Source: Thalassococcus profundi (GTDB lineage: Bacteria; Pseudomonadota; Alphaproteobacteria; Rhodobacterales; Rhodobacteraceae). Taken from it: a DNA stretch of 64,000 nucleotides. Below are positions 4,514 through 64,000 of this stretch, piece after piece (within the stretch, counting starts at the first letter, position 1; every line of letters starts with the position of its first letter). The translations under genes were made by a program, and so were the position numbers. The DNA is taken from NCBI RefSeq assembly GCF_003344785.1, contig NZ_QPMK01000006.1, forward strand, positions 186,001-250,000, given 5' to 3'. The notes under the pieces were generated by a model. The model was not told the DNA's origin. It saw nothing but the letters and a program-made list of their open reading frames with translations, and did no database searches.

Positions 4514-4790
4514 CCCAGAGATCCGGGTCGAAGCCGCGCTGACGGGCGATGGCGGCATCGACATCGTTTTCGGGACCCGCCGTAAGTTCGGTCCAGGCGC
4601 GGTCGCCGGTGCTCAGGTCGAACATCCGCGTGAAGGCGCGGGCGGCTCCGTCCAGCGTGTTGAGCTTGACCAGCACCGCGCCCGCCGTGTCGTCTCCATG
4701 GGCGGTGACGAAGGCGGGGATGTCATGAAGCGACAGGCGGCGCAGGTAGGCCTGCACCCAGAAGCCCGCCGCGAGGCGCGGTTCAGGCAT
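4455..4790 (-). CDS. DUF1491 family protein
   Basis: A 111-residue soluble protein of the alphaproteobacterial DUF1491 family (MPEPRLAAGFWVQAYLRR start, AVLVKLNTLDGAARAFTRM centre, DPDLWVIEVEDRQGRHLL end). Its function is unknown. The ATG at 4790 lies inside the end of era (8 bp overlap), so the two genes are almost certainly translationally coupled. The era-DUF1491-recO order is common in Rhodobacterales, which suggests a housekeeping role. Its 3' end overlaps the convergent Pr6Pr gene by 59 bp. Confidence 0.85.
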   Translation of the reverse strand: MPEPRLAAGFWVQAYLRRLSLHDIPAFVTAHGDDTAGAVLVKLNTLDGAARAFTRMFDLSTGDRAWTELTAGPENDVDAAIARQRGFDPDLWVIEVEDRQGRHLLDEDGLS

Positions 4791-5691
4791 TGCCGTCCTT
4801 GAAGTTCAGGCCCATTTCCGAATAGCGCTCTGATTCCTCGAGCCATTTCTCGCGGACCTTGACCTGCAGGAACAGGTGCACCTTGCGGCCCAGAAATTCC
4901 TCGAGCTCTTCGCGCGAGGCCTTGGAGACGGCTTTGATCGTCTCGCCCTTGTGGCCCAGCAGGATCCCCTTATGCCCGTCGCGGGCCACGTAAACCACTT
5001 GGTCGATGCGGGCGGTGCCGTCGGGGCGTTCCTCCCAGTTCTCGGTCTCGACCGTCAGCTGGTAGGGCAGTTCCTGGTGCAGGCGCAGGGTCAGTTTCTC
5101 GCGAGTCATCTCGGCGGCGATCATGCGCAGCGGCAGGTCGGCGATCTGGTCCTCGGGATAGAGCCAAGGGCCTTCGGGCAGCTCTCCGGCCAGCCAGTCG
5201 CGCAGGTCCTCGACACCGTGGCCCTTTTCGGCGGAGATCATGAAGGTGCGCACGAAGGGAAAGGCGTCGTTCATCTCCTGGCTGAGCGCCAGCAATGCCT
5301 CGGCCTTCACGCGGTCGATCTTGTTGATGGCGAGCGCGACGGTGCGGCCCTTGGCGATGTCGCCCAATCCTTCGAGAATGTTCTTGACGCCCTCGGTGAC
5401 GCCACGGTGCGCTTCGATCAGCAGCACGACGACATCGGCATCCGCGGCGCCTGACCAGGCGGCGGCGACCATGGCGCGGTCGAGCCGGCGCTTGGGGGCG
5501 AAGAGGCCGGGCGTGTCGACGAAGACGATCTGCGCTTCGCCGGCCATCGCGACGCCACGGATGCGGGCGCGGGTGGTCTGGACCTTGTGGGTGACGATCG
5601 ACACCTTGGCCCCGACCATGCGGTTGGTCAGGGTGGACTTGCCCGCGTTGGGCTCTCCGATCAGGGCGACGAATCCGGCGCGTGTGGGCAT
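4783..5691 (-). CDS. era: GTPase Era
   Basis: Era is an essential GTPase that binds the 3' end of 16S rRNA and aids small-subunit assembly. The 302-residue product has the full domain set: P-loop GEPNAGKST at 12-20, switch region with KVQTTRARIRG near 35-45, DTPG at 58-61, NKID near 123-126, and a C-terminal KH domain (GHKGILLGHKGETIKAVS and EEFLGRKVHLFLQVKVREKW). It is normally just downstream of rnc in this order. Here an EamA transporter and dddL separate rnc from era. It overlaps the following DUF1491 gene by 8 bp. Confidence 0.96.
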   Translation of the reverse strand: MPTRAGFVALIGEPNAGKSTLTNRMVGAKVSIVTHKVQTTRARIRGVAMAGEAQIVFVDTPGLFAPKRRLDRAMVAAAWSGAADADVVVLLIEAHRGVTEGVKNILEGLGDIAKGRTVALAINKIDRVKAEALLALSQEMNDAFPFVRTFMISAEKGHGVEDLRDWLAGELPEGPWLYPEDQIADLPLRMIAAEMTREKLTLRLHQELPYQLTVETENWEERPDGTARIDQVVYVARDGHKGILLGHKGETIKAVSKASREELEEFLGRKVHLFLQVKVREKWLEESERYSEMGLNFKDGNA

Positions 5692-5772
5692 CTTGGGAAC
5701 CTGTCTGCGGTTGCAAGTCTGCGCCTATAGGCGAAATCGCGGCCAAGGGCCAGAGGGTCGTCGCGGAGGGCG

Positions 5773-5846
5773 ATCCGCGCGGGGCGCGCGGATACGAGAG
5801 ACGCTGTCTCTCGTGCTCTCTGGAGTTTATCGGCAAGATGAAGGGG
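5773..5846. repeat. Two-hairpin intergenic element, copy A
   Basis: Two inverted repeats sit back to back. Hairpin 1 (5773-5793) has 8 bp arms ATCCGCGC/GCGCGGAT. Hairpin 2 (5794-5814) has 9 bp arms ACGAGAGAC/GTCTCTCGT around the loop GCT. They are followed by a conserved tail, GCTCTCTGGAGTTTATCGGC then AAGATGAAGGGG, ending at 5846. The same arrangement recurs at 9298-9370 and 52407-52475. This copy lies between era and dddL, both on the minus strand. Orientation, transcription and function are unknown; see findings. Confidence 0.85.
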
Positions 5847-5940
5847 CGGCGGGCGGCTGCCGTTCCTCTGACGGGCCGTTGGTTTTACGCTTGTCTGCGG
5901 GGGCCTCCGGTTCGGGAGCCGCCGCGTCCGTGCCTCGGGG

Positions 5941-6639
5941 TTATGGTGTCGCGCGGCGGCGGTAGCTGAGCTTCATCCCCGGGGCGGCGAGGCGGTCGGT
6001 ATTGCCGACCCAGGCATAGGCCAGCAGGCAGGGGTCGACCTGGCCGGTGGTGATGCGGTGTTCGTGTTCCGACCGGTTGAGGATCAGCGAGCCGGGCGCG
6101 TAGACGGCGGCATCGTTTTCCGACCAGGCGCCGGCGAGGGAGATGTAGCTTTCCTCGATTTCCTTGTGGCTGTGCTGCGGATAGGTGGTGTTGGGCGCGA
6201 AGAGCACGAACCCGAGGATCAGCCGTTCGGCCATCACCGGGCCCTTGGGACCCAGCACTTCGCAATAGGCGTATTTGCGGGCCAGGGCCTTGGGCACTTT
6301 TTCGTAGCCGTATTCCCAGGTCAGCAGGTGCGCCACACGCTCCAGCGCGCGGGACAGGCCGCAGAGCGCGCCGCGCGCGCCGATGTCGAGCGCGCGGTCG
6401 AGGTGCGCGGTCACCGGCTTGGCTTCGGGCGCGCGGGCGGCGAGCACGGGGTTGGCGTCGATCACCGAGGACAGGGTTTCGCGCACCCGCTTGCGGTGGC
6501 TGCGGATCGCCTTGCTGCCGCCGGCCGACCCGTGTCGGTAGAGGGTTTCGAATTCGCGCAGCAGGTAGATCCAGTTCGGCGTATCCTGCAGCCGCTGGGT
6601 CTGGTCGGGCTCGGCTTGGAACGGGCGGAATTCGGACAT
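5941..6639 (-). CDS. dddL: Dimethylsulfoniopropionate lyase DddL
   Basis: Cleaves DMSP to dimethyl sulfide and acrylate in the cytoplasm. The 232-residue protein has an N-terminal helical part and a C-terminal cupin carrying the DddL signature YPQHSHKEIEESYISLAGAW. Likely metal ligands are H156, H158, E162 or E163, and a second histidine in SEHEHR (H192/H194). Length and motif match DddL of Sulfitobacter and Rhodobacter, and no other Ddd family has this block. It is transcribed with, and 104 bp after, the EamA transporter gene. Both sit inside the normally contiguous lepB-rnc-era block, which suggests insertion. No acrylate-handling genes are nearby. Confidence 0.9.
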   Translation of the reverse strand: MSEFRPFQAEPDQTQRLQDTPNWIYLLREFETLYRHGSAGGSKAIRSHRKRVRETLSSVIDANPVLAARAPEAKPVTAHLDRALDIGARGALCGLSRALERVAHLLTWEYGYEKVPKALARKYAYCEVLGPKGPVMAERLILGFVLFAPNTTYPQHSHKEIEESYISLAGAWSENDAAVYAPGSLILNRSEHEHRITTGQVDPCLLAYAWVGNTDRLAAPGMKLSYRRRATP

Positions 6640-6743
6640 CGGGCAGGGCTTTCAGATCGGCGTGGTGGTTCGGGCCGTAGCCGACTCGCCGGTGTTTCCA
6701 CCGCCCATGGGCGACAGGATCGTGTCGGTTTTCGACCGGGTGG

Positions 6744-7619
6744 CTATTGCGGCCGCGGGCCTGGGCGGCGCAGAAGCGTGTAGGTGCCGCTGGCGACGAT
6801 GATCGCGGCGCCCAGCAGGGTCAGCGCGTCGGGCGTTTCCCCAAAGAGCAGCACCGCGAGGACAAGCGCCACCAGCAGCCGGCTGTAGCGGAACGGGGCC
6901 ACGACCGAAACCTCGCCGGTGCGCATCGCGAGGGTCAGCGCCGAGTAGCCCAGCACGCCGCAGATCGCGGTGCCGGTGATCTTGAACGCGGCGCTGGCGG
7001 TGGGCAGGGCGAGCGGCTGCGGCTCGAAAGCCAGGATGGCGAGGCCCGCGGCGGTGACCACCGCGAAGCCGAGGATGCCCAGCTGGTGCGCGTGCACCTG
7101 CGGCGGGCTGGTGCGGGTGGCGAGGTCGCGTCCGGCAAAGCCGATCATGCCGAGAATCGCGAAGATCGCATTGGCCTCGAGCCCATCTGCCGTGGGCCGC
7201 AGGATCAGCAGCACGCCTGCAAAGCCGACGGTCATGGCGATCCAGCGCCGCGGTCCGACCTTTTCGCGCAGGACAAGCGCCGCACCCAGCGTGACCACCA
7301 GCGGCGCGGCCTGCAGGATCGCGGTGGTGGTGGCGAGCGGCGTGTAGGCGAGGCTGAGGGCGAAGAAGATGCGCCCGCAAAGCTCGAACCCGGTGCGGAT
7401 CAGCAGGCGGGTCTGCAAAAAGGCCGGGTGCCAGAGCGGCGTACCGCGGGCGCGCAGCAGGGCGGCGTAGATCAGCATGGCCATCAGCCCGTATTGCAGC
7501 GTGCCCATGCCGGGACTGGTGCCGCCGGAATTGGTGGCGGCTTTGAAAAAGGCGTCCTCGATCCCGAAGCCGATCATCGCCAGCACCATGAAGGCGCTGC
7601 CGCGCAGGTTATCCGTCAC
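6744..7619 (-). CDS. DMT-superfamily (EamA) transporter
   Basis: A 291-residue inner-membrane protein with about ten hydrophobic helices in two EamA repeats: repeat 1 starts at [19 protein letters not shown], repeat 2 near [21 protein letters not shown] (about residue 150). The repeat-1 segment [20 protein letters not shown] and repeat-2 ending [24 protein letters not shown] are typical of drug/metabolite exporters. The substrate cannot be told from sequence. Position suggests DMSP, acrylate or a related compound, because dddL follows on the same strand, but that is inference. It starts inside the end of rnc (11 bp overlap), so it is translationally coupled to a housekeeping gene. Confidence 0.85.
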
Positions 7620-8298
7620 GGTCCGTCACCCGGTCGAGCAGCGCCCGTGCCGCGGCCTGTTCGGCGGCGCGTTTCGATCCCGCCGTGGCCTCGGCGCCGG
7701 TGCCGTCGGCAAGCTCTGCGCGGATGGTGAAGACCGGCGCGTGATCGGGGCCGGTGCGGGCGGTTTCGGTATAGCTGGGCGGAGTCTGCCCGCGCGCCTG
7801 GGCCCATTCCTGCAACGATGTCTTGGCGTCGCGACTGTCGTCCTCGACGGTGTGGATGCGCTTGCCCCAAAGCTTCAGGATCACCGTCTTGGCGGCGTCG
7901 AAACCCGCGTCGAGGTAGATCGCGGCGATCACCGCCTCCATCGCGTCGCCCAGCAGCGCCTCTTTCCGGCGGCCGCCGGACAGCATCTCGGACCGTCCGA
8001 GTTTCAGTGCCGCCCCAAGGTCGATCTGGCGGGCCACCTCGGCACAGGTTTCCTTGCGCACCAGCGCGTTGAAGCGCGGCGCGAGCTGGCCTTCGGCGGC
8101 CTTGCGATCGGCGGCGAGCAGTGCCTCGGCCATCACCAGGCCCAGCACCCGGTCGCCGAGGAATTCCAGCCGCTGGTTGTCGTCGCGGTTGGGGCCGGAC
8201 ATGGAGGCATGGGTGACCGCGCGCAGGATCAGCTCGGGCCGGCCGAAGCGGTGGCCGATCCTGTCCTGGAGCGCGATGAGGTCGGCAGAGAGCTTCAT
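7609..8298 (-). CDS. rnc: Ribonuclease III
   Basis: Processes double-stranded RNA, including rRNA precursors. The 229-residue protein has the RNase III signature [18 protein letters not shown] from residue 41 with the metal-binding Glu/Asp residues, a second acidic cluster at [19 protein letters not shown], and a C-terminal dsRNA-binding domain from about residue 155 ([20 protein letters not shown] ... [17 protein letters not shown]). It follows lepB by 31 bp on the same strand, the standard lepB-rnc pair. Its 3' end overlaps the EamA gene by 11 bp. Confidence 0.96.
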
Positions 8299-8329
8299 CG
8301 GCGGGCCATGGATGCGCAGGCCGGCAGCA

Positions 8330-9163
8330 TCACTCGATCTTTTCGAAGAAGCGGTCGCCGCGCCAGGTCCAGAAGAACAGCATCGAGGCCCCAGCCGAGG
8401 AGAACACCACGCGGTCGGCGCGGCCCACGAGGTTCTCGTATGGCACGAAGCCGACGCCGCCGGTCACCGACGGCACGCGGCTGTCGGCGGAATTGTCGCG
8501 GTTGTCGCCCATGAAGAAGTAATGCCCTTCGGGCACCGTGTAGACGGGCGTGTTGTCCGATCCCTGGTTGGCGATGTTGAGAATGTCGTGGCTCACGCCG
8601 TTGGGCAGGGTTTCGGTGAAGCGCGATTTCGTGCAGGCGCCGCCGTCGCCCACGGGACCGTTTTCGCAGCGCGGGCGCGAACCTTGCGGGCCCTGGGGTT
8701 CGGAGGTCTCTTCGAAGGTGCCGTTGGGGGTCAGCTCGACCGCGGCGCCGTTGATGTGCAGCACGCCGTCCCGCATCTGCACGGTTTCGCCCGGCAGGCC
8801 GATCAGGCGCTTGATGAAGTCGCGCCCGGTGATCGGGTGGCGGAAGACCACCACGTCGCCGCGCTGCGGCTCGCCGCCCAGGATGCGGGTATTGTCGCCG
8901 TCGAGAAAGCCGCAGATGTCGGCGGCGTCGATGTCGATGCCGATCTGCGGCAGGTAGACCGACGGGCAGGAGGCATAGGAATAGCCGTAGGCCATCTTGT
9001 TGACGAAGAGGAAATCGCCGATCAGCAGCGTGTCCTTCATGGAGCCGGAGGGGATCCAGAACGGCTGGAAGAAGAGCGTGCGGAAGACCCCGGCGATCAG
9101 CAGGGCATAGACAACCGTCTTGATCGTCTCGACGATCGCGTTGCCCTTTTTCTCGGACGCCAT
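8330..9163 (-). CDS. lepB: Signal peptidase I
   Basis: Cleaves signal peptides from exported proteins at the periplasmic face of the inner membrane. The product from the ATG at 9163 is 277 residues, with an N-terminal membrane anchor ([16 protein letters not shown], residues about 17-32). The Ser/Lys dyad is clear: S41 in [10 protein letters not shown] and K118 in [14 protein letters not shown]. Box E follows as [11 protein letters not shown]. Residues about 150-185 form an insertion typical of alphaproteobacterial LepB, with a pair of cysteines (CENG...CTKS). The frame is open 77 codons further upstream, but [16 protein letters not shown] is the usual start. A 513 bp gap separates it from the amidase. 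Confidence 0.95.
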
Positions 9164-9297
9164 GGAATGCCCCTTTCGCGGTTTTCTTGCGCGCTTCATG
9201 CGGGGGGGCGCGGCGGGTGTCAAGGTGGCGGGGTGACCGCCTGGTGCGCGTGATCCCGGAGAGGCCGTCCGGTGGGCTTGCGCGGAGGCGCTGCCGG

Positions 9298-9370
9298 ATC
9301 GCCCGTGCCGGGCGATACGAGAGACGCTGTCTCTCGTGCTCTCTGGAGGTTTATCGGCAAGATGAAGGGG
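9298..9370. repeat. Two-hairpin intergenic element, copy B
   Basis: Same architecture as copy A. Hairpin 1 (9298-9316) has 7 bp arms ATCGCCC/GGGCGAT. It directly abuts hairpin 2 (9317-9337), which has the identical 9 bp arms ACGAGAGAC/GTCTCTCGT and loop GCT. The tail GCTCTCTGGAGGTTTATCGG then CAAGATGAAGGGG runs to 9370 and differs from copy A by a single inserted G. It lies in the 513 bp gap between lepB and the amidase gene (both minus strand). Confidence 0.85.
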
Positions 9371-9468
9371 GCGCCGGTTTCGATGCTTCAGCACGGGGCC
9401 GCTCGGATTCGCTCGGGACGGCGATGCGCGGGAGCGGCTTGATGGATGACCGTGAATGCGCGCCGGGG

Positions 9469-9486
9469 GCCGCGAAATTTCGCGGC
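9469..9486. repeat. Perfect 18 bp palindrome
   Basis: GCCGCGAAATTTCGCGGC is fully self-complementary with no spacer, about 190 bp beyond the amidase stop codon on the minus strand and about 310 bp upstream of lepB. It could be a protein-binding site or the core of a transcript-end structure. There is no T-run to call it a terminator. Confidence 0.6.
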
Positions 9487-9676
9487 ACGCGGCGAGTCTT
9501 TCTGAGCGGACGCGGCGACCGAGATGCGGTGACGGTCGCGCTTGTTGCGGCGCGCGTGCGGCCCGGTCCGTTCAGTGGATTCCGGCCCTTGGGCGGTGGA
9601 CTGGCGCGCCGCACTCTCTGCTCTCGTGTGCCCGGGAGGAGGCGGACGCGATGGCGGGCGGATCGGGTGCCGCGGG

Positions 9677-11011
9677 TCAGGCGGACAGGGCGGCCTCGAC
9701 CGAGAGGGCGAGGCGCAGCAGCGGCTCTTCGCCCATGGGGCGGCCCAGGAGTTGCAGCCCGCAGGAGGGCGTGCCGGTGGGCAGGGTGATCGCCGCGAGC
9801 CCCATGAGGTTGCCGACGCGGGTGTTGCGCAGGGTCAGCAGGTTTTCGGTCACGTAATAATCGTTCTCGGTCATCAGCCGGTCGACCTTGGGCGGCAGGT
9901 TGGGAGCCGTGGGGCAAAGCACCGCATCGAAACCCGCCGTGGCGGCGGCCCACGCGGCGCGGACCCGATCGAGTCGCCGCCAGGCGGCGACGTAGTCGGC
10001 GCCCGAAACCACCTTGCCGCCTTCGAAGCGTTCGCGGATCGGGGCGAACATCAGGTCCGGCTGTGCCGCGATGGTCTCTCCCCAGGTGCCCCAGGCCTCG
10101 GTGGTGTAGAGAACGCCCGAGTCGCCCATCGGGCCCGTGATCTCGGGCACCTCGATATCCGCAACGCTGGCGCCCGCGGCGCGCAGGCGGTTAAGGGCCG
10201 CGGCATGAGCGGCGGCGGGTTCGGGGCGGATGTCGTCCTGGACGACCGTCAGCAGGTTGGCGAAGCGGCGGCCCTCGAGCGAGGCGGGGGCGCGGGTGTC
10301 GATTGCACGGCCACCTTCGAGTGCCGCGAGGAGCAGGGCGGCATCCTCGACCGTGCGGCAGAGCGGGCCCACGGTGTCGAATTTCGCGGCAAGCGGCACG
10401 GTGCCTGTAAGCGGAATGCGCCCGGCGGTGGTCTTGAGCCCGACGAGATCGTTCCAGGCCGCGGGGATGCGCACCGACCCGCCGGTGTCGGACCCGATCC
10501 CGGCCGCCGCGAGGCCGAAGGCGACGGAGGCGGCGGCGCCCGAGGAGGAGCCGCCGGGCACCGCGTCGGCATCGTTGATGCAGGGCGGGGTGGCGGTCAC
10601 CGGGTTGAGGCCCAGGCCGGAGAAGGCGAGTTCGGACATGTGGGTCTTGCCGAGGCAGACGAGGCCCAGGGCGGTGGCGGTGCGCAGGACCGGCGCGTCG
10701 GTTTCGGGCACGCGGTCCCTGAGCAGCGCGGAGCCCGCCTCGGTCGCCACGCCGGCGCTGTCGAAGAGATCCTTCCAGCTGACCGGTACACCGTCGAGCG
10801 GCGAGCGGCGCTGGCCGCTGCGGGCACGGGCGGCGGCGGCAAGCGCCTCGGCCCGGGCGCGGTCGGGCGTGGTGCGGGCGTAGATGCGGTCGGACAGGGG
10901 GTGGTCTTTGATCTTGTCGAGGAAGGCCTCTGTCAGGTCCACCGGATCGACCTTCCCGGCGGCGATGGCCCGGCCGAGTTCGGCGGCGGTTTGAACGGTC
11001 CAGTCGGTCAT
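9677..11011 (-). CDS. Amidase-signature family hydrolase
   Basis: A 444-residue amidase-signature enzyme. The Ser-cisSer-Lys triad is intact: K80 in PVSWKDLF, cis-Ser S155 in the GGSSSG loop, and nucleophile S179 in SDTGGSVR; the 24-residue spacing between the serines is standard. It most resembles stand-alone aliphatic or indole-acetamide-type amidases. GatA function is unlikely, because no gatC or gatB is adjacent. The substrate is unknown. The start at 11011 (MTDWTVQTAAELGRAI) is preferred to an upstream frame extending to 11158, since those residues lie in the promoter region shared with the divergent ubiH-type gene. Confidence 0.87.
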   Translation of the reverse strand: MTDWTVQTAAELGRAIAAGKVDPVDLTEAFLDKIKDHPLSDRIYARTTPDRARAEALAAAARARSGQRRSPLDGVPVSWKDLFDSAGVATEAGSALLRDRVPETDAPVLRTATALGLVCLGKTHMSELAFSGLGLNPVTATPPCINDADAVPGGSSSGAAASVAFGLAAAGIGSDTGGSVRIPAAWNDLVGLKTTAGRIPLTGTVPLAAKFDTVGPLCRTVEDAALLLAALEGGRAIDTRAPASLEGRRFANLLTVVQDDIRPEPAAAHAAALNRLRAAGASVADIEVPEITGPMGDSGVLYTTEAWGTWGETIAAQPDLMFAPIRERFEGGKVVSGADYVAAWRRLDRVRAAWAAATAGFDAVLCPTAPNLPPKVDRLMTENDYYVTENLLTLRNTRVGNLMGLAAITLPTGTPSCGLQLLGRPMGEEPLLRLALSVEAALSA

Positions 11012-48369: not shown

Positions 48370-50118
<1,749 letters not shown>

Positions 50119-51749: not shown

Positions 51750-52385
51750 ATGACATCCCCCAACGGACCTTTGCGCGTGGGCCTTGGCGGCCCGGTTGGC
51801 GCGGGCAAGACCACGCTGACGGCGGAACTGTGCCGCGCGCTGGGACACCGCCTGTCGATGGCGGTGGTGACCAACGACATTTACACGCAAGAGGATGCCG
51901 AGGCGCTGATGCGCATGCAGGTGCTGCCGCTGGAACGGATCCGCGGGGTCGAAACCGGCGGCTGCCCGCACACCGCGATCCGCGAGGATGCCTCGATCAA
52001 CCTCGCGGCCATTGCCGAGCTGAACGCGGCGATTCCCGACCTCGACCTGATCCTGATCGAGAGCGGCGGCGATAACCTCTCGGCCACGTTCTCGCCCGAG
52101 CTTGCCGACGTGACGATCTACGTGATCGACGTTGCCGCGGGCGAGGAAATCCCGCGCAAGGGCGGACCCGCGATAACCCGCTCGGACATCCTGGTGATCA
52201 ACAAGACCGATCTCGCGCCCCATGTCGGCGCGTCGCTCGAGGTGATGGAGCGGGACGCCACGCGGATGCGCGCCGGGCGGCCCTTCGTCTTTGCCGCCCT
52301 GCGCCATGGTGACGGTGTGGGGCGGATCGTCGATCTCCTGTCCGAGATCGGCGGACTGGCGCTGGAACGGACGGCGGCGGAATAG
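51750..52385 (+). CDS. ureG: Urease accessory GTPase UreG
   Basis: SIMIBI GTPase that drives nickel insertion into urease. The 211-residue protein has the P-loop [19 protein letters not shown] (residues about 13-31), the nickel-binding Cys-Pro-His motif in [15 protein letters not shown], the ESGGDNL switch II block and [18 protein letters not shown] complete set of ureDABCEFG is therefore present. Copy C of the two-hairpin repeat follows 21 bp after the stop. Confidence 0.96.
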
Positions 52386-52406: not shown

Positions 52407-52475
52407 AGCGCGCGTGCCGCGCGCTACGAGAGGCCAGCCTCTCGTGCTCTCCGAGGGTTATTGTGAACCGAAGAA
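52407..52475. repeat. Two-hairpin intergenic element, copy C
   Basis: Hairpin 1 (52407-52425) has 8 bp arms AGCGCGCG/CGCGCGCT. Hairpin 2 (52426-52445) directly abuts it, with arms ACGAGAGGC/GCCTCTCGT. Compared with copies A and B, the stem has changed from GAGAGAC/GTCTCTC to GAGAGGC/GCCTCTC: both sides of one base pair changed together. The tail is diverged (GCTCTCCGAGGGTTATTGTG then AACCGAAGAAGGG). It lies between ureG (plus) and the Asp/Glu racemase-like gene (minus), i.e. between convergent gene ends. Confidence 0.8.
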
Positions 52476-52508
52476 GGGCTGAACCTTCAGGAATGGGACG
52501 GTGCGCCG

Positions 52509-53246
52509 TCAATGGTCGCGGAAGAGGCGACCGAAGCCGGGCATGGCGTCGGTCATGCCGGCCAAGCGCAGCATGTGCCAGGCGATCACCTGGTTGCTCG
52601 ACAGGACCGGCAGACCGGTCCTGGCTTCGAGTTCCTCGATGAGGTCGAGGGTGCGCAGGTTGGTGCAGGACAGGAAAAGCGCGTCGATGCCGCCCCTGGG
52701 TGCGAGGGTTTCGCAGGCGGCCCGAATGGACTGCGGGGCGATGCGGACGACGCGTTCCTCGCGCGCCTCGTTGAAGCTGCCGAAGACCGGCGTGTCGATG
52801 CAGTTCTCTGACAGCACGCGGCGCAGGCGGTCCGACACCTCTGCGGTATAGGGCGACAGGATGCCCAGCCGGGTGATCTGCAGTCTTTGACAGGCGGCGA
52901 GCAGGGCGGTCAGCGGGTTGGTGACGTGATCCGTGGGCGCAGCGGCTCCCACCAGGTCCGCCACCCGGGCGGGGCCGATCACGGCGGCGCCCGAGGTGCA
53001 ACCGTAGCCGATCGCCGCGTAGCGTTGCATCTGTGGCAACAGCGCCGCCGAGGCGGGCAGGTCGCGGGCCATTTGGCCCAACGTCTCTTCGGTCACCTCG
53101 TCGCCGCTTGGCACGCGGCTCACCAGCAGGTTCACCGAGGCGGGAATGAGCTGGCGCAGGTCCCGTTCGAGGCTTTCGTCGGTCTGCAGGACGATCAGGC
53201 CCAGCCGCGCCTCGTCGGCCTGGATCAGCGTGTAGGGCATGTTCAT
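52509..53246 (-). CDS. Asp/Glu racemase or maleate isomerase-family protein (EutA-like)
   Basis: A 245-residue member of the Asp/Glu racemase superfamily with both catalytic cysteines: C83 in GYGCTSGAAVIG and C194 in FLSCTNLRTLDLI. The pattern and spacing fit the maleate isomerase/arylmalonate decarboxylase subgroup, which also includes EutA of ectoine catabolism. No other ectoine-degradation gene of the doe/eut set is clearly present, so EutA function is only a possibility. It is the last gene of a three-gene operon, overlapping the M24 gene by 4 bp (ATGA). Confidence 0.8.
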   Translation of the reverse strand: MNMPYTLIQADEARLGLIVLQTDESLERDLRQLIPASVNLLVSRVPSGDEVTEETLGQMARDLPASAALLPQMQRYAAIGYGCTSGAAVIGPARVADLVGAAAPTDHVTNPLTALLAACQRLQITRLGILSPYTAEVSDRLRRVLSENCIDTPVFGSFNEAREERVVRIAPQSIRAACETLAPRGGIDALFLSCTNLRTLDLIEELEARTGLPVLSSNQVIAWHMLRLAGMTDAMPGFGRLFRDH

Positions 53247-60218: not shown

Positions 60219-63200
60219 TCAGTAGTCCTTTTCGAAAAAGATGCCGAGGCTCGTGTTGCCGTCGGTTCCCACCGTTCCACGGGCGGTGACCTGCGGCGTG
60301 ATGTCGAGGTTGAGGTTCACGTCGGTGCTGCCTTCGGAATTGACCGTGACATCGGTATAGAGGTTCTCACCGATGTACTTGCCAAAGCGCAATTCGGTCG
60401 ATCCGTCGGCCGCAGTCTGCACGTCGAAATCATCAAGCCCGATACCCGTGCGCAGGCGATCGACGATCCCGGTGCCGCCGCGGCCGACGAGCGTGTTCAC
60501 GGCGGCCGCGATCCGCACCGCCTGAAATGCCGAGATCTCGGTCACGTCGCGCCCGAACAGCAGCAGTGCCAGCACTTCTTCCTCGGGGCGATCGGGGCTT
60601 GAGGTGATATTGACCTCGGGGTCGGACACCGGTCCCTGGATGACAACGGCGATCGACGTCTCGGCACGGGTGGTCTCGGCCCGCACGAAGATGAAGGCGT
60701 CGAAATCGCCTTCGAGCTGGATGCGTGCCTGTGCGAGGTCGAGCCGCTGGCCCAGAATGTCGAGCCGTCCGCGGATCAGCTCGAAACTGCCCGCCGGGAT
60801 GATGTTGGACGTGGTGCCGCCCAGCCGCAGGGTGCCGCCCAATTCTGCATCCAGCCCGCGCCCGCGGATGAAGATGCGCGACGGGGCGTTCACCACAATG
60901 TCGAGAGGATAGTTGATGCCGGGACCGCTGGTGCCCGCTTCGCTCTCGATCAGGCCGGCCCGTTCGCGGGTCCGGCGCACGTCCGCCGGTTCGTTGACAT
61001 GGGTCAGGGTGAAGTCCAGCCCGGCGGCGCCCAAGCCGGTGTCGGGAATGCGGATCTCCATCGTCTCGAAGTCCAGATTGCCCGCAAGCCGCGCATCTCG
61101 GGTGAGCGCACCGCGCAGGGTCAGCGCGCCGTTCACTTCGGTTTCGATCAGACCGGGCCGCACGATCCCGACGCTGTTCAGCGCGATGGACAAGTCGCCG
61201 TTGAACGGCGCCGACAACGTCACGGGACCGGTGACACTCAGGGACCCGCCCGTGGACACGCCCGATTGCAGGTCGATCTGCGCGCGCCCGCCGGTCAGGT
61301 TCACGTTCGCATTGATGTTCTCGAGCGTCAGCTGGGCCGCCTGGATCACCATCTGCGCGCCGGAGCTGGTCACCGTGCCCGACACCGCGTCGAGGCCCGG
61401 CGCGCCGTTGACCCGCAGGTTGAATTGCGCGGTACCCGACAGGATGTTCGGTTCGGTGAACTGGTTGACCAGCGCCAGCGGGGCGGAACCGTTGGCGGAA
61501 AGGTTCACGCGGCTGAAATCCGGCGCGATGGTGCCCGCCACATCGGCGGTGGTGCCGCCGGGACCGGTCAGCGCTGTATCGATCCGGTATTCGCCACCCG
61601 AAGAGGACGCCGTTCCGCGCGCCGTCGCCTGCCCGTCGAAGCCGGGGGCGAAGAGGCCGAGGTTGCGCAGAACCACGTTGTAGCTCAGCTGGCCCGAACC
61701 GTTGGGCGACAATGCGCCATTGGCATCGGCCGTCAGCTGCGGGGTGGCGAGGTCGAAGGTTTCCACCACGATCCGCCCGTCGGCGCCGCGCGCCGCATCC
61801 ACAGTCACGGTGCTGCGCCCTGCGGTCAGCTGGTCCACCGCGGCGATGCCGCTGCGCAGGTTGTTGGTGCTGCCGGTGAGTGCGACGTCGAAACTGCCGT
61901 CCGCGGGGTTGAAGCCGCCGTTGCCTTGGAAATCGAAGGAGCCGCCCAGCGACCGGCCGGCAACGCCGGAAAACGCCGACAGGTCCGAGGCGCGGAGCGT
62001 GCCCTGCCCGGAAATCCGGCCCAGCGTGTCGTCGGCGTAACGCACCGTCCCTTCGGCATCGACCGCCAGCCCGCCGGGGCCGGAGCCGGTGATGTCGAAG
62101 GCGAAATCGTCGCCCGCCTGGTCGATGCTGCCCGAAAGCCGCGCGCCGCCGCTGCCGGCCATCTGGGGCAGGGCGTCGGCCAGATCCTCCAGCACCACGT
62201 CGAAGCGCGCGGCACTGGCCTGGTCGCGCAGAATGCCTTCGCCGCTGGCGGTCAGCTGCGGGTTTTCGACACGCAGGTTGCGGACCAGAAGGCCTTCGGC
62301 GTCCTGCCCCGCATCGACCGTGAAGGTGGTCACGCCAGCGAGCAGGTTGTCGGCCTGTTCGATGCCGGTGCGCAGATCGCGGGACGTGCCGGACACGTCC
62401 ACCTCGAAATATTGCGTTTCGGGGTCGAAGGACCCGTTGCCTTCGACCGATACGGCGCCGCCCAGGTCGCGGCCCGCCACGCCGGAATAGACCGACAGGT
62501 CGTCGGCGCTGACCGTGCCGTTGCCCGACACCGGTCCCAGAGTGCCCGCGGCGATGTTCTCAAGCCCGTCGTAGGTGTAGGTGACCGTGGCCAGAGCGTC
62601 GATGGCGGCGCGGCCGGGGCCGGTGCCGTCGATGTCGATTTCGAAGGCGTCGCCGTTCTGGGTCACCGTGCCGGCCAGTTCCGCTGCGCCTGACAATTCC
62701 GGCAGCACGTCCGCAAGATCGACCAGCGCCACGTCGAAGCGGGCGTTGCTGTTCTCGTCGCGCAGGATGCCGTTGCCGCTTGCGGTGATGCGCGGCGTGG
62801 TCAGGGTCAGGCTGGTGAGGTCCACGCGGTCGCCGACGCGGGCAGCCACCACGTCGAAGGTGCTGCGGCCCTGCATGAGGTTGTCCACCTGGGCGACGTC
62901 CACGCGCAGGTTGTTGGCGCTGCCCTCGATATCCGCCTCGAAGTTCTGGCTGCGCGGGTCGAAGGTGCCCGACCCGGTGATGTCCAGCCCGCCGGCCAGA
63001 TCGCGCTGCGCCAACTGCGAATAGAGCGACAGATTATCGGCGGCGAGGCTGCCGCGACCGCTGACCTGGGCCAGCACGCCCTCGATCACCTGCACCGTGG
63101 CCTGGCCGTCGAAGACTACGCCGCCGGGCGCATTGGCATCGAGGTCGAGCGCATAGCTGCCGCCGGTTTGCCGGACATTGCCGCGCAGCCGGGTCTGACC

Positions 63201-64000
63201 CTGAAGTTGCGGCACGGCCAGCGCGGTTTCCGGCAGGGTGATGTCGAAATCGGCGATGGTGCCGGTAGAATTCAATCGTCCGTCGGCGGTGATCGTGGCG
63301 CCGGGGGCGGTGATGTCGAACTGGCGCAGGCTGACGCCGGTTTCGTCGCGCGCGGCGTCGATGGCCAGCGTGCTCTGGCCGTCCAGCAGGCCGTCGAGCT
63401 CGGCGATGCCGGTCACGAGGTCGTTGGCAGTGCCGTTGACCGTCGCGTCGAAGCTGCCGTCGAGCGGCGCCACGGTGCCGATCACCCGCACGTCCACGTC
63501 GCCGCCAAGCTCTTGCCCGGCAAGCGCGGAAAAGCGCGATACGTCGTCGGCGTTTACCTGCAGGTCGGCGACCACGACGGGGCTGACGCGGTCCTCGGGG
63601 ATCTCGACCGACATGGTGCCGTCAAGTGCGTATTCGTCGCCGGACAGGCGGATTTCCGGCAGGTTGAGCGGCATGCCCTCCTGCCAGTCGAAGGTGATGC
63701 GGCCGGTCAGCGCGTCGCCGACGCCCGAGGCCAGGCCCGGATCGGAAAAGGCCAGTTGGCTGGCGTCGATGTCGAATCCGCCCTGGACGCGGCCCACGGC
63801 AGAGCCGGTGCCGCGGGTCAGCGTGCCATTGCCGGTCAGCGCGGCACTGCCCAGCGACAGGTCCGGTCGCGACAGGTCGTCGAGCGTGATTTCGGCGGTC
63901 CAGGCGTCACCTTCGCTGGCATCGTATTGCACCGACAGGTCCACCGCCTGCACCTCGGTGTCGCCGCCGGCGACGGGCAGCACCACCTGCGTGTCGTCGT
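60219..64000 (-). CDS. tamB: Translocation and assembly module protein TamB, partial (N-terminus off the window)
   Basis: Inner-membrane-anchored periplasmic bridge protein that helps move lipids and outer-membrane proteins with TamA. About 1,260 residues are present, with the start beyond the right edge. The C-terminal about 350 residues are the DUF490/TamB domain (VVIQGPVSDPEVNITSSPDR, EEEVLALLLFGRDVTEISAF, TARGTVGTDGNTSLGIFFEK, D-Y end). Before it lie four tandem modules of about 170-178 residues. Their lead motifs are DVSRFSALAGQELGG, NLSLYSQLAQRDLAGG, DLSVYSGVAGRDLGG and DLSAFSGVAGRSLGG, at roughly 63545, 63035, 62501 and 61985. It ends 9 bp from the convergent ectR stop. Confidence 0.93.
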   Translation of the reverse strand, partial: DDTQVVLPVAGGDTEVQAVDLSVQYDASEGDAWTAEITLDDLSRPDLSLGSAALTGNGTLTRGTGSAVGRVQGGFDIDASQLAFSDPGLASGVGDALTGRITFDWQEGMPLNLPEIRLSGDEYALDGTMSVEIPEDRVSPVVVADLQVNADDVSRFSALAGQELGGDVDVRVIGTVAPLDGSFDATVNGTANDLVTGIAELDGLLDGQSTLAIDAARDETGVSLRQFDITAPGATITADGRLNSTGTIADFDITLPETALAVPQLQGQTRLRGNVRQTGGSYALDLDANAPGGVVFDGQATVQVIEGVLAQVSGRGSLAADNLSLYSQLAQRDLAGGLDITGSGTFDPRSQNFEADIEGSANNLRVDVAQVDNLMQGRSTFDVVAARVGDRVDLTSLTLTTPRITASGNGILRDENSNARFDVALVDLADVLPELSGAAELAGTVTQNGDAFEIDIDGTGPGRAAIDALATVTYTYDGLENIAAGTLGPVSGNGTVSADDLSVYSGVAGRDLGGAVSVEGNGSFDPETQYFEVDVSGTSRDLRTGIEQADNLLAGVTTFTVDAGQDAEGLLVRNLRVENPQLTASGEGILRDQASAARFDVVLEDLADALPQMAGSGGARLSGSIDQAGDDFAFDITGSGPGGLAVDAEGTVRYADDTLGRISGQGTLRASDLSAFSGVAGRSLGGSFDFQGNGGFNPADGSFDVALTGSTNNLRSGIAAVDQLTAGRSTVTVDAARGADGRIVVETFDLATPQLTADANGALSPNGSGQLSYNVVLRNLGLFAPGFDGQATARGTASSSGGEYRIDTALTGPGGTTADVAGTIAPDFSRVNLSANGSAPLALVNQFTEPNILSGTAQFNLRVNGAPGLDAVSGTVTSSGAQMVIQAAQLTLENINANVNLTGGRAQIDLQSGVSTGGSLSVTGPVTLSAPFNGDLSIALNSVGIVRPGLIETEVNGALTLRGALTRDARLAGNLDFETMEIRIPDTGLGAAGLDFTLTHVNEPADVRRTRERAGLIESEAGTSGPGINYPLDIVVNAPSRIFIRGRGLDAELGGTLRLGGTTSNIIPAGSFELIRGRLDILGQRLDLAQARIQLEGDFDAFIFVRAETTRAETSIAVVIQGPVSDPEVNITSSPDRPEEEVLALLLFGRDVTEISAFQAVRIAAAVNTLVGRGGTGIVDRLRTGIGLDDFDVQTAADGSTELRFGKYIGENLYTDVTVNSEGSTDVNLNLDITPQVTARGTVGTDGNTSLGIFFEKDY

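Follow-up and report, generated by a model that had tools for sequence, protein, structure and literature searches.

Layout of the three copies in the window

The window, that is, the whole 64,000-nucleotide stretch analysed here, contains three copies of an intergenic repeat, referred to as A, B and C, all read on the plus strand. Copy A is located between the genes for an era-like GTPase with MMR_HSR1 and KH_2 domains (4783–5691, minus strand) and for a DMSP lyase family protein (5941–6639, minus strand), on the 3' side of the latter gene and antisense to it. Copy B has a similar setting between the genes for a signal peptidase (Peptidase_S26; 8330–9163, minus strand) and an amidase (9677–11011, minus strand), again on the 3' side of the second gene and antisense; both copies are antisense to the neighbours on either side. 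Copy C follows, in the sense direction, the stop codon of a gene that adjoins ureF and encodes a CobW/HypB/UreG-domain protein (51777–52385, plus strand), and it faces a convergent gene for an Asp/Glu racemase / arylmalonate decarboxylase-type protein (52509–53246, minus strand). Gene calls, here and below, come from our own codon-usage caller rather than from a curated annotation. Two other features of the window are recorded here. The segment 48562–48849 (minus strand), antisense to the ORF 48370–50118 near ureF, matches the Rfam family 5_ureB_sRNA with 110 bits, a match more probably due to conserved urease coding sequence than to a genuine antisense RNA. Within a single long ORF (60219–63998, minus strand), the interval 61779–63434 holds four copies of a repeat of about 96 nt, spaced 510–534 nt apart; the ORF looks like a gene for a protein with repeated domains.

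Copy A consists of (i) hairpin 1, a variable palindrome (5773–5793); (ii) hairpin 2 (5794–5814), made of a purine arm ACGAGAGAC, a GCT loop and a pyrimidine arm GTCTCTCGT; (iii) a third segment, GCTCTCT (5815–5821), which mirrors the pyrimidine arm and is the parallel complement of the purine arm; and (iv) a tail, GGAG-TTTATCGGC-AAGATGAAGG (5822–5844). In copy B, the corresponding parts are found at 9298–9316, 9317–9337, 9338–9344 (also GCTCTCT) and 9345–9368, the tail reading GGAGG-TTTATCGGC-AAGATGAAGG. Copy C represents a second subtype, of which the genome contains about 35 copies, A and B forming one subtype: its hairpin 1 (52407–52425) precedes a G-C variant of hairpin 2, ACGAGAGGC/GCCTCTCGT (52426–52445), its third segment, GCTCTCC (52446–52452), carries a C in place of the T of A and B, in step with the stem, and its tail, GAGGGTTATTGTGAACCGAAGAAGGG (52453–52478), includes a GGTT/AACC mini-hairpin. 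The three sites and the direct abutment of the two hairpins in each of them are thus as given in a preliminary description of this DNA, and so is the conserved tail end of A and B, both of which close on AAGATGAAGG. The constant 9 bp arms that it ascribed to hairpin 2 are present in A and B, where ACGAGAGAC-GCT-GTCTCTCGT is identical (mean number of matches in shuffled sequences 0.00, n=100), but not in C, which has a shorter loop and a compensatory change.

For each of A, B and C, the RNA of either strand is predicted to fold more stably than shuffled sequences, with z values from −2.3 to −3.2. A weak hairpin inside the tail (UUUA..UGAA, or GGUU..AACC in the subtype of copy C) may be real. 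A pairing of the third segment with purines of the tail, also seen in RNA folds, was discarded as not general, the bases past GATGAAG differing among copies. The preliminary description had also read the tail as a Shine-Dalgarno sequence followed by ATG, and a small ORF or small RNA is indeed brought to mind by the GGAG(G) located about 12 nt before the ATG in A and B. The ATG is not conserved: GAAGAAGG stands at this position in the second subtype (copy C) and in many elements of G014 and G031, and GATGAAAG in others, so that the second subtype lacks the ATG, as do many tails in at least two other genera. In addition, no Rfam family matches A, B or C at its gathering threshold (the best weak match at A, PrrB_RsmZ, scores 13 bits for 44 required), and none matches the elements found at three loci from two other genera. 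The Shine-Dalgarno/ATG or small-ORF reading was therefore rejected, a small RNA or small ORF being hardly conceivable here.

Copy number, layouts and distribution

The motif AAGATGAAGG occurs 86 times in the 4.78 Mb genome, against 4 occurrences for the backwards control; 60 of the 86 sites can be assigned to four layouts, and 59 of these 60 lie outside called genes. A whole-genome search with a covariance model built on hairpin 2 and the tail retrieved at least 149 related sites at an E value of 0.05 or better among the best 150 of 2149 candidates scored, which bears out the description of a dispersed element of fixed layout. Layout and placement were classified for 135 of these sites, the 14 weaker ones being left out: 42 belong to T1a (the type of A and B), 35 to T1b (the type of C), 16 to T2a, 26 to T2b and 12 to T3, in which the tail is present and the third segment absent, and 4 to other layouts. 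The core of the element comprises the purine-pyrimidine hairpin, the mirror pyrimidine segment, GGAG, a short T-rich stretch and a genus-dependent tail; some forms also include a variable GC-rich palindrome, either before the core, as in the layouts of the window, or, in other genera, after the hairpin and ahead of the third segment. Two kinds of unusual copies were observed in the same genome. In rare ones (L063, L075 and also C45:148882), other sequence, partly another hairpin, breaks up the purine arm of hairpin 2 or takes its place. Six others (L010, L037, L046, L065, L071 and L074) contain an extra CCGCGAGTTTTGC...GCAAAACTTGCGG hairpin between the T stretch and GGCAAGATGAAGG.

Hairpin 1 had been described as keeping its pairing while its sequence varies, and this proved correct for pattern-selected T1 copies: in 71 of the 76 with an intact hairpin-2 arm, a perfect stem of 5–11 bp abuts hairpin 2, with 33 different arm sequences among T1 copies. 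A stem of at least 5 bp is present at this position in 1.5% of shuffled sequences and in 25.7% of two-copy chimeras. Co-occurrence of the two hairpins, on which the unity of the element had been made to depend, therefore holds genome-wide for T1 but not for T2, where hairpin 1 was found in none of the 38 copies searched. Retention of the stem across 33 arms indicates that pairing is kept rather than sequence; it is no proof of selection, since templated palindrome correction could have the same outcome.

In many genera, the core ends with CCCCGGRDTATTT. This motif is present in 124 of the 149 genomes of an order-wide sample, all from one family of Rhodobacterales, with at least five occurrences in 97 genomes, at least 20 in 48 and a maximum of 124 (G102); its backwards control never exceeds one occurrence in any of these genomes. 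It occurs only three times in the genome under study because the copies there mostly end otherwise. In a class-wide sample, it was found in 26 of 190 genomes, most of the sample being near background: three occurrences in the genome under study, six in G048, which lies outside the family, and one or two in each of the remaining genomes. A model of the window layout matched 18 of 60 genomes, including the one under study, which has at least 98 such copies; the other 59 have 0–15 (1–15 in 17 of them under stricter filters). Twenty-one stretches matched this layout. Seven of them, all from Rhodobacterales, have the hairpin and originate from Shimia (Rhodobacterales, Roseobacteraceae), Roseivivax, Pseudooceanicola, Jannaschia and Tateyamaria, the Tateyamaria stem being imperfect; the other 14, from unrelated taxa, lack the hairpin and were taken as chance matches. 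The seven point to Rhodobacterales as the order of the genome under study as well. Tails differ between genera.

Comparison with congeners points to gain and loss at individual sites, since at none of the three orthologous sites was the same copy present in a congener that was compared. The two genes flanking copy A are adjacent to an empty site in G001 and G004, and site C is likewise empty in G001, where the same convergent gene was recognised. At site B, the same peptidase gene is preceded in G001 by an element that belongs to a different subtype and points the other way, and no element was detected in G002 or G004 with the pattern used; this is the weakest of the three comparisons, the amidase neighbour having been found in none of G001, G002 and G004. 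As a separate observation, the gap that corresponds to element A upstream of era holds several CCATACG-type units in the congeners G001 and G004 (L315 and L316).

Such empty sites, the differing subtype and orientation at site B and the sharply different copy numbers of the window layouts among genomes are what one would expect from a REP/PIT-like DNA repeat that forms structures and is mobile or self-propagating, or is occupied by a protein that binds DNA or governs its topology, with no role in transcripts. REP elements have a hairpin with a 5' tetranucleotide, REP/BIME elements are commonly placed at 3' ends, and ERIC elements are enterobacterial in distribution. The present repeat resembles REP/BIME elements as a high-copy palindromic intergenic repeat; it differs from them by its combination of a hairpin, a mirror segment and a long one-sided tail, and by the lack of a Y1/RAYT transposase. 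The domain of the latter, PF01797, has no match in the genome, while it was found in 5 of 14 genomes used as a control, which speaks against a DNA repeat of this type and led us to discard a REP with a RAYT system. The lack of an Rfam match at gathering threshold and of a REP-associated transposase domain agrees with the preliminary description, whose author knew of no named element with this layout. No description of the element was found among the open-access papers listed.

Covariation between hairpin 2 and the third segment

The segment that follows hairpin 2 mirrors the pyrimidine arm, and its bases change in concert with those of both arms; the preliminary description missed this feature, as it did the layouts that lack hairpin 1 and the distribution across the family. 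Among 88 T1/T2a elements of the genome, the triplet made of stem position 6 and its partners in the two other segments reads A-T-T in 72 cases and G-C-C in 16. That of position 8 is A-T-T in 52 and G-C-C in 33; three elements are exceptions. In other genomes (n=29), the triplets are G-C-C (15), A-T-T (11), G-T-T (2) and G-G-C (1) at position 6, and G-C-C (23), A-T-T (5) and G-T-C (1) at position 8. Stems with mixed purines separate the two possible registers: among 121 such stems (83 from the genome under study and 38 from others, each at its best placement), 112 obey the parallel rule at six bases out of six, and none obeys the antiparallel rule to this extent. These counts and those by position concern pattern-selected copies, from which identical repeats of the same stretch were dropped. 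Two of the nine exceptions to the parallel rule are overlapping readings of one G014 copy with CCCACCC; in the G014 copies L291 and L293, CCCACCC is found where the CCCTCCC arm predicts CCCTCCC. Note that GAGAGA, GAGGGG and GAGAGG account for 115 of the 121 stems and that these three dominant stems are common by descent, so that independent triple changes are few.

The lengths of the segments are also correlated. Among 164 elements whose stem is a G-run, 129 have a second C-run of the same length as the stem (matched lengths of 4, 5 or 6) and 35 do not, compared with a maximum of 76 matches under random pairing (20,000 permutations) and of 84 when pairing was randomised within genomes (5,000 permutations). 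This set is restricted to anchors with a C-run of at least 3 and a detectable G-run hairpin, and 26 of its 164 rows are GAGGGG stems shared with the mixed-purine set. The lengths match in 39/39 elements of the genome under study, 31/38 of G009, 28/43 of G020, 8/10 of G031, 6/9 of G029, 4/7 of G014, 5/5 of G024, 2/6 of G022 and 6/7 of other genomes, the mismatches thus including 15/43 in G020 and 4/6 in G022. A spacer of at least 6 nt, corresponding to the inserted hairpin, precedes the third segment in 125 of the 164 rows, and the match persists across these inserts of 6–45 nt, which by eye are usually the variable hairpin, in 91 of 125.

In pure G/C-run elements, the 129 matches in 164 would suit equally well a second pyrimidine run that competes with the first one for the purine arm, giving an alternative duplex and an attenuator-like switch instead of a triplex. 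Such a duplex predicts the antiparallel rule, which fails in all of the 121 mixed-purine stems, whereas the parallel rule holds in 112, and the positions that co-vary are the mirrored ones; this explanation is thus very unlikely. The mirror relation was also compared with a backwards-reading control, which is invalid because the motif is symmetric under reversal (204 mirror and 78 direct arrangements in both the real and the control data). Mirror copies seem to be beyond the reach of ordinary slippage or palindrome correction.

At the level of sequence, the mirror relation has the geometry that Holder et al. 2015 (PMC4666352) define for class III among intrastrand triplexes: a purine arm, a pyrimidine arm and a parallel-complementary pyrimidine segment, with a stem of at least 6 nt, are present in 112 of the 121 mixed-purine elements. 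The loops of A, B, C and of the short-link layouts of the genome fall within the limits of 1–6 nt given for the search in that paper, but not those of elements with a hairpin inserted before the third segment (spacer of 6 nt or more in 125 of the 164 G-run rows). The repeat has much in common with the PIT/BoxC/TM_ECO repeats of Enterobacteria, as portrayed in the same source: both are dispersed, intergenic, GC-rich, without strand bias and variable among close relatives, and both combine a purine arm, a pyrimidine arm and a third strand. TM_ECO belongs to class II (Y-R-R'), with nine-nt stems and a 37-nt consensus (PMC4666352), whereas the present repeat, of six or seven triplets, would be of the R-Y-Y' type (class III). 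It differs further from TM_ECO as described there in its additional palindrome, its conserved tail and the existence of several stem variants whose segments change together. The TM_ECO/PIT pattern CCCTCNCCC N3-6 GGGNGAGGG N3 GGGNGAGGG has no exact match in the whole genome. The words Rhodobacter, Roseobacter and Alphaproteobacteria are absent from the main text of PMC4666352; the ITxF database described there may list such sites automatically. H-DNA mirror repeats share with the element the mirror symmetry of polypyrimidine tracts, e.g. TCTCTCG-T-GCTCTCT, but the arms are only about 7 nt long here and an extra purine arm is present on the same strand.

Placement relative to genes and possible function

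Of the 135 classified sites, 66 lie between convergent genes, 31 and 32 in tandem gaps of the ++ and -- types, respectively, 5 between divergent genes and 1 inside a called gene. The distribution is similar for 110 sites from five other genera (convergent 52, ++ 21, -- 27, divergent 5, inside a gene 3, locus edge 2), a set drawn from motif-rich genomes and multi-hit regions, with matches near locus ends dropped, so that its densities are not representative. Being rich in convergent gaps, poor in divergent ones and even in tandem ones, this placement indicates a preference for 3' ends and no overall direction. Stop codons are close to the element on both sides, with median distances of 34.5 and 65 nt. 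Finally, face-to-face pairs about 45–60 bp apart, with the tails facing each other, were found in G020 (C1:316057/316106, C3:11316/11369 and C19:87875/87919), G136 (C1:1028511/1028569) and G078 (C1:176824/176878).

Proximity to stop codons raises the possibility of a one-directional intrinsic terminator, with a weak U-tract, UAUUU or UUUA, after the hairpin or hairpins. The element resembles Rho-independent terminators by a GC-rich hairpin close to stop codons and the T-containing stretch after it, the median distance from the ends of the 98 plus-strand genes to hairpin 2 being 34.5 nt, and the face-to-face pairs of three genomes give the impression that each convergent gene has an element of its own. 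Terminator-like sites, when the element itself is included, are found for 19 of 98 genes on the left, in the sense direction, versus 11 of 93 on the right, a difference in the expected direction but not significant (p 0.17), and the tandem copies of T2a and T3 lean to sense (6 vs 2 and 5 vs 2). On the other hand, the T stretch begins some 7–12 nt past the hairpin and contains just three or four T, so that no U-tract adjoins the stem, and conserved bases extend to about 30 nt past the hairpin. Both orientations are used, tandem copies being evenly divided between sense and antisense (31 vs 32 in the genome, 21 vs 27 in the other genera); T2b is balanced (8 vs 7), and T1, the layout of the window itself, leans to antisense (11 vs 20, p 0.15), all these splits by layout resting on small numbers. 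A terminator scan of 5400–10000 returned no site at A or B, and canonical terminators between stop codon and element are no more frequent on one side than on the other (6/98 and 5/93, for 4/93 in an opposite-strand control). Altogether, one-directional termination is an unlikely role for the element.

Among the roles put forward in the preliminary description, a mobile repeat, a processing or termination signal and an RNase III substrate are all conceivable. The even tandem orientation is hard to square with a function in the sense RNA. Together with the rarity of copies in divergent gaps, it suits the DNA repeat introduced above, whose accumulation at 3' ends would then result from selection removing insertions elsewhere; TM_ECO of E. 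coli is likewise intergenic and devoid of strand bias in the account given in PMC4666352. In that account, no gene-level function could be assigned to TM_ECO, in vivo footprinting lent no support to stable triplex formation, and the work cited on the PIT repeats of E. coli reported no terminator activity. Retention throughout the family, genus-specific tails and three-way covariation suggest in turn that selection acts on the structure, over and above mere spread. We regard a DNA repeat devoid of a role in transcripts as a serious possibility that falls somewhat below an even chance.

The reading that we tentatively favour, while placing it just short of even probability, is that of a repeat of the PIT/REP kind that would act at transcript ends whatever its orientation; the DNA repeat is nearly as likely. 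In this transcript-end element, the third segment would fold, at least transiently, into the major groove of hairpin 2 to give a class III intrastrand triplex, and the opposite strand would give a purine-motif class I triplex. Approached from either side, the structured block might then work where transcripts end: it could make RNA polymerase pause or stop, or shield the 3' end once Rho-type termination has taken place. The element would spread, or undergo gain and loss, as a mobile repeat without coding capacity. C+.G-C triplets form only with protonation, and a triplex of six or seven triplets is short. According to Holder et al. (PMC4666352), purine-motif triplexes cannot form in RNA. That selection maintains a triple helix, with three strands changing together in mirror register across the family, in up to about 100 or more copies per genome and at a gene-end boundary that works in both directions, is conceivable but on the whole doubtful.

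The element marks many gene ends where canonical terminators are few, in a family of bacteria that is common in the sea, and it merits annotation. Possible triplex-forming repeats have already been catalogued in bacteria, as reported in PMC4666352, and a third strand that tracks the other two, even across an inserted hairpin, would offer natural compensatory variants for testing bacterial triplexes.
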